This document shows positions 36,876 through 37,938 of a stretch of 64,000 bases of DNA, one piece after another. Source of the stretch: a virus. The notes under the pieces were generated by a model, which did not search any database, was not told the origin of the DNA, and was given only the letters and a program-made list of their open reading frames with translations. A program made the translations under genes and the position numbers. How positions within the stretch are numbered: position 1 is the stretch's first letter; each line of letters opens with the position of its first letter. The DNA lies in IMG/VR virus record IMGVR_UViG_3300009164_000054, positions 1-64,000 of that record, one strand, 5' to 3'.

Positions 36876-36925
36876 GCAAACTACCCAATGTCTGTTACTG
36901 TGCTATTTGCGTCAAGTAACTGCTG

Positions 36926-37021
36926 TGATTGAGACAGGACTTGAACCTGTATGTGTACCGAGTTTATTTGGATTATGAGTACACTTAACCCAATTAGCGT
37001 CTACCATTTCGCCACTCAATC
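36926..37021 (-). tRNA. tRNA gene with Leu-type D arm and abnormal anticodon region
   Basis: Acceptor GATTGAG/CTCAATC (7 bp), D arm GCGAAATGGTAGACGC as in tRNA-Leu, and a T arm ACAGG-TTCAAGT-CCTGT are all clear. No CCA is encoded. Between D and T arms are 46 nt instead of the usual 23-38. They hold TTGGG(TT)...(AA)TCCAA with a 12-16-nt loop, ending in a Met-like CTCATAA, plus GTGTAC/GTACAC pairing that would make a pseudoknot. Leu anticodons TAA or AAG also occur in the loop, so identity is uncertain. Confidence 0.7.
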
Positions 37022-37038
37022 ATTTAATAATAGATAAA

Positions 37039-37542
37039 CTACATTTTATTTATATAAGATCTATTTGCAGATATATCACGTATTGTTGCATAAGGTATAT
37101 CATACTCTATAGATAAATATTTCAAATCTAACTTTTCTTTATTAGTTCTTCTTAATGAGATTATATTATATATCTGAGTAACTAAAGTAATATCAAATTG
37201 TCTATTAGGTGGTACATGTCCTTTTTGAAACTTTTTACCCTCATCTACTACTAATCTACCTTTAGCTTTACAATCTTGCATATTATCTTTCTGTGTACCT
37301 AAAAATAAATGATTAGGATTTACACATTTTCTGTTATCACATGTATGACAAACTTTTAATGTATTATCTGTGATATTACCGTAAATTAGCTCATATGATA
37401 ATCTATGAGAACCATGTGTCTTATCTTTTGTTTTAAATGCACCGTATCCATTTGATCTACATGATGCTGTCCATTCCCAACAATCATTCTCTGATTTGAT
37501 ACTTACTTTATCCCAGAATCTTTTAATTTGTTCTTCAGTCAT
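37039..37542 (-). CDS. HNH homing endonuclease (HNH_3 type)
   Basis: A 167-aa protein: FWDKVSIKSENDCWEWTASCRSNGYGAF (NUMOD4-like start), GSHRLSYELIYGNI, then VCHTCDNRKCVNPNHLFLGTQKDNMQD, a canonical HNH_3 core, and a C-terminal helix-turn-helix (LSIEYDIPYATIRDIS). It lies between the tRNA and the tRNA-like element of the RNA gene cluster, a typical landing place for such genes. Confidence 0.9.
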   Translation of the reverse strand: MTEEQIKRFWDKVSIKSENDCWEWTASCRSNGYGAFKTKDKTHGSHRLSYELIYGNITDNTLKVCHTCDNRKCVNPNHLFLGTQKDNMQDCKAKGRLVVDEGKKFQKGHVPPNRQFDITLVTQIYNIISLRRTNKEKLDLKYLSIEYDIPYATIRDISANRSYINKM

Positions 37543-37557
37543 AATATAATTATTTTG

Positions 37558-37606
37558 CCACAGGGATAAGAATTGAACTTACATTTACATACCATTATGC
37601 CCTGTG
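37558..37606 (-). tRNA. 49-nt tRNA-like element without an anticodon arm
   Basis: CACAGGG and CCCTGTG form a perfect 7-bp acceptor. A T-arm-like GTAAG-TTCAATT-CTTAT lies before its 3' strand, and a D-loop-like CATAATGGTATG follows its 5' strand. Only 17 nt separate acceptor and T arm, so the anticodon arm is missing. Its 5' end directly abuts the CCA of the tmRNA. It may be a decayed tRNA or a processing signal for RNase P. Confidence 0.6.
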
Positions 37607-37938
37607 TGGTGGAGGTGGCGGCATACGATAGCCGCGTCCAAATTACGTTCATCAATACAATTTATACAGCTTATTTAGGGTCAAGCTCAGCTTAACGATC
37701 CACCACTCTGTTTAATCTAACAGAGAAATCTTCATTAATTTAGGCTGCTACACCAAGATCAGTATCTACATTCAATAATGAGAACACTTTGTTCATGTTA
37801 GCTTCGATTTGTGCGTTTGCTCCTAGAGCCACTACACGAGAATTGTTTTTGCCATTTAATTAAATTCACCTTAGTTTACAGTTATCTCTCTGGCTGATTG
37901 TATTAATTATTGGTAACCTGTCAAATCCAGTCACCCCC
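37607..37938 (-). ncRNA. ssrA: Phage-encoded transfer-messenger RNA (tmRNA)
   Basis: The 5' end reads GGGGGTGACTGGATTTGACAGG, the standard tmRNA opening, and the 3' end CCACCTCCACCA. GGGGGTG and CACCTCC give a 7-bp acceptor with one G-T pair, and CCA is encoded. The mRNA-like part follows TAGTG with a GCT resume codon and a 29-codon frame ending ...LGVAA and TAA. Then come a TCTCTGTTAGATTAAACAGAG hairpin and the TTTGGACGCGGC lead to the T arm. The T arm is unusual (GCGGC/GCCGC with loop TATCGTAT). Likely role: rescue of stalled ribosomes during infection. Length 332 nt. Confidence 0.85.

Follow-up and report, generated by a model that had tools for sequence, protein, structure and literature searches.

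Identification of a long-tag tmRNA gene in a crAss-like phage

The window, the whole 64,000-nt stretch of viral DNA analyzed here, carries a one-piece tmRNA (ssrA) gene of 332 nt at positions 37607-37938 on the minus strand, and a chance resemblance is excluded by covariation in relatives. tmRNA tags are usually about 10 residues long and are treated as simple degrons. The tag predicted for the phage gene has 37 codons, about four times the usual length, and it belongs to a virus-specific family of tags with a selected internal motif that occurs in more than 100 uncultured phages and in the cultured flavobacterial phages phi38:1, Calle, phi14:2, and Fpv. Phage tmRNAs as such are already known, and that of Calle has been annotated; the long-tag family is new in the open-access literature searched, in which we found no description of it or of trans-translation tags of crAss-like phages. 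The novelty lies in this tag family, and we infer a function for its motif. The cultured members make it directly testable what a phage gains from its own ribosome-rescue RNA and whether tagged proteins are diverted.

The covariance model of tmRNA (RF00023) matched exactly at 37607-37938 (-) from end to end (model positions 1-374 of 374), with a score of 72.8 bits and an E-value of 2.1e-26 in cmscan, against a gathering score of 47 bits. The Infernal search that an earlier note on this DNA had proposed for a suspected tmRNA thus bore the suspicion out. ARAGORN, the other check proposed there, called two tRNAs only in the window and missed the gene. The window is part of a 90.6-kb IMG/VR virus contig, and its assignment to a crAss-like phage, also made earlier, agrees with the capsid protein, which matches PF23898 (Crass_capsid, E=9e-28), and with the terminase, which is closest to those of crAss-like phages (40% identity to Leptolyngbya phage Lbo-JY46; 31% to Cellulophaga phi4:1 and phi17:2). 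A second record, L004, is 100% identical to the window over 7,241 bases, so the gene is not an artefact of a single assembly.

Structure of the tmRNA gene

The 7-bp acceptor stem is formed by the 5' strand GGGGGTG (37932-37938) and the 3' strand CACCTCC (37611-37617), a pairing that had been recognized from the letters alone. It includes G3.U70, the alanine identity pair, which was present in 29 of 29 relatives, and three of its pairs showed changes on both sides in these relatives. The discriminator A is followed by an encoded CCA (37607-37610), as the earlier note had stated; among the members checked, the CCA is limited to the population of the window and L004, and it is missing in Bacteroidota hosts and in most of these phages alike. 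The gene also contains a tmRNA-type D-loop, CTGGATTTGACAGG, and both GGACGCGG and the previously noted lead TTTGGACGCGG stand ahead of the T arm. The T arm itself (37618-37635), GCGGC-TATCGTAT-GCCGC, combines an atypical loop, unlike the TTCRANN of relatives, with a stem of 5 bp (GCGGC/GCCGC) that covaries, 4 of the 5 pairs having changes on both sides.

The long-range helix H2, which connects the tRNA-like domain to the message part, is formed by AATACAAT (37897-37904) and ATTGTATT (37654-37661). It was 98.7% paired in relatives, and changes on both sides were found in 5 of its 8 pairs. A nearly invariant block, CAGAGAGATAACTGTAAACTAAGGTGAA, common to at least 119 viral contigs, lies at the site of pseudoknot PK1 (37865-37892), and its invariance leaves the pairing there without a possible covariation test. 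Pseudoknots PK1-PK4 were sought, and 3' of the tag there was support for one or two short hairpins only. The hairpin CTCTGTT-AGATTA-AACAGAG at 37706-37725 was about 99% paired, with changes on both sides in 3 of 7 pairs. Taken together, the acceptor stem, H2, the downstream hairpins, and the T stem had 97.1% paired cells across the 29 relatives, compared with 34-54% for slid control structures, and 17 of 36 pairs had changes on both sides, compared with 8.2 in shuffles. Because the script that picked the relatives demanded pairing in the acceptor and T stems, H2 and the hairpin at 37706-37725, neither of which entered into the selection, are the cleaner evidence. Single-sequence folding of the window RNA was moderately better than that of shuffles (z -2.4).

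Two other classes of RNA were considered and rejected. A permuted two-piece tmRNA (RF04321) does not fit a 5' end at 37938 and a 3' end at 37607 in normal order on the same minus strand, and an RNA that consists of a tRNA-like domain (TLD) only, of the DS6A type, is ruled out by the 37-codon tag, which is conserved in relatives.

Tag reading frame

The tag is most likely translated from the resume codon GGC at 37853, which is homologous to the Gly codon that opens the host tag G(ENNYALAA). The frame, GKNNSRVVALGANAQIEANMNKVFSLLNVDTDLGVAA, covers 37743-37853 (-) and is followed by the stop codon TAA at 37740-37742; it was matched by the tag profile with an E-value of 2.3e-14, and it has a host-homologous start and signs of purifying selection. 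Its last codons, GTA GCA GCC TAA, give the VAA-stop end that the earlier note had read correctly. The resume site was placed there at TAGTG-GCT, which our results do not support. The GGC lies 24 nt upstream of that GCT (37829) in the same frame, in the context AATTAAAT-GGC-AAA-AAC-AAT, and it is preceded by TTAAAT, as in host tmRNAs. In the host tmRNAs compared, the tag opens at a Gly codon, mostly after TTTAAAT/C, and reads GENNYALAA, GNNNYALAA, GENTYAVAA, or GNTQYAMAA. TAGTG-GCT is not conserved: it is absent in short-tag members and is changed or missing in L046, L237, L243, and L267, which keep the upstream Gly (or Asp) start. With the resume site misplaced, the first reading took in the later part of the tag alone and missed a long, conserved, phage-specific tag.

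The sampled Bacteroidota tags have 9 residues, although one was read by ARAGORN as 15 (DNKQLTGENNYALAA). ARAGORN also placed the resume sites of the relatives too far downstream, and annotation based on this program misses or misreads long-tag phage tmRNA genes. The tag of phi38:1 is expected to open A-GNNTNAVNAQIEANM..., with Gly as the first coded residue.

The long-tag family

The search pattern for the family was derived from the block that precedes the tag and is therefore independent of the tag itself. It matched at least 119 viral contigs, and long tags are carried by about 120 viral contigs and, in addition, by the isolates. The 80 distinct tags have 20 different lengths, from 24 to 49 residues (median 35); ANM is present in 79 of them, and 75 end in AA. 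An alignment of 28 tags showed no variation at Q, A, N, and M and almost none at V, and the consensus of the core is Q-x-x-A-N-M-x-x-V-x-x-[LI]-[LI]. The pattern AQIEANM alone was found in 68 viral stretches, 61 of which were in a long-tag tmRNA setting.

The cultured members are Cellulophaga phages phi38:1 and Calle (Callevirus), which form an isolate group with a VGV end instead of AA, phi14:2 (Crassvirales, Steigviridae), and the Flavobacterium Fpv phages. A tmRNA feature is annotated in Calle but not in phi38:1, and the annotated Fpv records examined have none. A crassvirus capsid was detected in 28 of 33 family records checked. SmpB was found neither in the 33 relatives nor in the record of the window, which makes the host SmpB the default, and ClpP was sought in the window's record and not found. 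The earlier view that phage tmRNAs are rarely reported is not in line with the literature: tmRNA was present in 402 of 18,146 phage genomes (PMC9004378), 79 unique phage tmRNA sequences have been collected (PMC11915505), and the tmRNA of Cellulophaga phage Calle has been counted as present (PMC8776804).

Selection on the core and its restriction to phages

The Q, A, N, and V residues of the core are fixed or nearly so, and the third positions of their codons vary. The 13-codon core had a dN/dS of 0.19 in frame, and shifting the frame gave 0.62 and 2.25; the positional entropy was 0.75, 0.49, and 1.09 at codon positions 1, 2, and 3, respectively. By these patterns, the tag is very probably translated, and its peptide sequence is under selection.

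The tag profile, which has 30 columns, matched all 6 control phage records once each (E 1e-9 to 1e-14); in the record of the window, its sole hit was the tmRNA (E about 2e-14). It had no match in 198 Bacteroidota genomes, and no tmRNA was seen among the 119 matches listed for AQIEANM in bacterial and archaeal genomes; on these two results, we rejected hosts and prophages as the source of the long tag. In the samples searched, the core is confined to phages. The core was not found elsewhere in phage proteins, the tmRNA being the sole match in the 6 control records and in the window's record (G000), and the long ORFs of the viral loci matched weakly (E 0.05-0.9). Long tags are not a general phage trait, as the 13-residue tags of phage G, MindFlayer, and Amabiko show. 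A putative mycobacteriophage Bxz1 tag used as a query gave no match and was left out of the comparison.

Proposed function of the long tag

In known systems, Ala-tmRNA enters stalled ribosomes with SmpB and EF-Tu, and ClpX or ClpA recognizes the ALAA at the C-terminus of the tag (PMC3985003). We consider it probable that the phage gene encodes a working one-piece tmRNA that uses the SmpB and AlaRS of the host, and that its tag joins a C-terminal degron to a conserved peptide, perhaps a docking helix. By analogy with known tmRNA biology, the host AlaRS would charge the phage RNA through G3.U70, and the host SmpB and EF-Tu would bring it to the stalled ribosome. The message, as comparison with relatives shows, is the 37-codon frame from GGC. 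Both ends of the host tag are kept, with a G-K/N-N start like G-E-N-N and a hydrophobic ...AA end, and the conserved core is inserted between them. The AA terminus may still act as a ClpX-type degron, and the core may be a short, probably helical docking signal that passes tagged phage products to a chosen protease, adaptor, or chaperone. This last step is the least certain. The helix that AlphaFold placed over residues 3-34 (mean pLDDT 73; core pLDDT 81-86) counts in its favor, although the confidence of the model is moderate. Against it, comparison of the tag with Pfam and PDB returned no similar domain or solved structure, and the amphipathicity, which peaked at 100 degrees, was not significant (about 10% of permutations were as high). 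The VGV end of phi38:1 and Calle also speaks against the reading as a whole.

If the tag does combine two signals, a large group of Bacteroidota phages, mostly crAss-like, may have rewritten the rescue label. We put forward tentatively, and with more doubt than belief, that QxxANMxxVxx[LI][LI] redirects the rescued chains to a partner of the phage's choice, or makes them act as effectors or inhibitors of protein quality control in the host, so that the phage tag competes with GENNYALAA.

An ordinary phage tmRNA, a spare for scarce or cleaved host tmRNA whose long tag is merely tolerated and whose core has no partner, would account for the degron-like end that is kept in nearly all tags. It would also fit with the frequency of phage tmRNAs (PMC9004378) and with the tRNAs that many long-tag phages also carry. 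However, mere tolerance would not keep Q..ANM..V fixed from one phage group to another while its codons drift synonymously, and we regard this explanation as unlikely.

The T loop raises another question. A TTCRANN loop is typical of the tmRNA family, though we did not count it as essential, and TTCGA or TTCAA was found in almost every relative whose 3' end was mapped, while the loop of the window lacks TTCRA. In addition, a 681-bp insertion bearing an HNH gene adjoins the tmRNA gene, and a TLD-only molecule strongly inhibits tmRNA (PMC4131195). The window copy could therefore be impaired or inhibitory, a decoy that binds SmpB but falls short of full tagging, as proposed for the TLD-only RNA of DS6A, but we give this only a small chance. 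The DS6A RNA has no tag, whereas the window gene has one; moreover, compensating changes leave the T stem fully paired, both G3.U70 and the tag frame are intact, and Buchavirus has the same loop, so simple decay does not explain the altered loop. The atypical loop lowers our confidence in the full function of the window copy, which may work less well, and not in its descent.

Slightly less probable still is a service of the core to the RNA, as a structural or pairing element or as an internal start at the ATG that all 84 distinct sequences share (with GCT-AAY-ATG dominating), given that the Q, A, N, and V residues stay despite changes at the third positions of their codons and that no pairing partner for the core was found in the fold of the window RNA.

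Comparison with known tmRNAs

The phage gene resembles the Bacteroidota host tmRNA in its one-piece form, G3.U70, a resume Gly codon after TTTAAAY, and the AA end of the tag. It differs in the tag, which has 9 residues in hosts and 24-49 in these phages, and in QxxANMxxV, which hosts lack. The portion 3' of the tag is much smaller in the phage gene, which has 332 nt with a long tag, compared with about 370-400 nt with a short tag in hosts. Bacillus phage G and Streptomyces phages MindFlayer and Amabiko also carry a tmRNA, but with 13-residue tags. The tmRNA of phage Melnitz is in two pieces (PMC9004378) and the RNA of mycobacteriophage DS6A has no tag (PMC4131195), in contrast to the one-piece gene with a 37-codon tag described here. 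The Calle tmRNA belongs to the same long-tag family but has a normal T loop and the VGV end, and its annotation and the corresponding paper report the presence of a tmRNA alone and leave the tag undescribed (PMC8776804). A changed protease readout is likewise known for the tags of Mollicutes, namely Mycoplasma and Mesoplasma florum (PMC3985003, PMC9097571). Mycoplasma tags end in AFA where ClpXP is missing (PMC3985003), and the M. florum tag is read by its Lon (PMC9097571). The phage tags, however, end in AA and have an unrelated core.

In MindFlayer and Amabiko (L304/L305, about 1501-1581), there is, besides a full tmRNA, a second RF00023 match of 81 nt, which at 42 bits is below the cut-off and coincides with no ARAGORN tRNA call. 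This match may represent a tRNA-like domain without a tag, as in DS6A.

T loop, insertions, and introns at the 3' end

The 681-bp insertion (36928-37608, minus strand) lies directly 3' of the tmRNA and is absent from the syntenic relative L010. It carries an HNH_3 endonuclease ORF (37039-37542), a tRNA, and a set of tRNA-like hairpins that lacks an anticodon arm. The tRNA, of 97 nt at 36925-37021 and class II in appearance, was called Thr-AGT by ARAGORN. The tRNA-like structure, directly after the CCA of the tmRNA at 37558-37606 (-), has a 7-bp acceptor (CACAGGG/CCCTGTG) together with D-like and T arms; neither ARAGORN nor Rfam gave a call there.

The T loop TATCGTAT is also present in permuted-looking tmRNA 3' pieces of the Buchavirus crAss phages L023-L026 (cr56_1, cr109_1, cr113_1, and MT835588). 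An antisense endonuclease gene lies between the Buchavirus tmRNA pieces and is of full length in L023, L025, and L026. The HNH protein of the window shares no homology with the endonucleases of Buchavirus or cr128_1, and that of Buchavirus is of another family. The tag of cr56_1 reads GNTSYVMDYTRLVA, and each of L023-L026 has a different tRNA-like sequence after the tmRNA.

Group I introns were found near the 3' end of the tmRNA in L007, L038, L064, and L086, and such an intron interrupts the T arm in L007 and in the gut phage cr128_1. The T loop is an entry point of group I introns in tmRNA genes (PMC11915505). It is an attractive idea, but only a possible one, that the T loop of the window was altered to resist homing, possibly homing of the intronless kind. 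The phage cr128_1 (L022, 2200-2870) has a short tag, GNTYRAAA, an endonuclease gene that overlaps the intron end, and a 39-nt block in common with the window tmRNA. In alignment A2, the T stem (columns 347-364) differs between close relatives and is always compensated, and the remaining tmRNA is nearly identical. Frequent exchange of the tmRNA 3' end, or pressure exerted on it by integrases or homing enzymes, may account for this. Ribozyme-type RNAs (RAGATH-9, RAGATH-20, and Hatchet) were also observed in L023-L026 and L271, some of them no more than 1-2 kb away from the tmRNA pieces.
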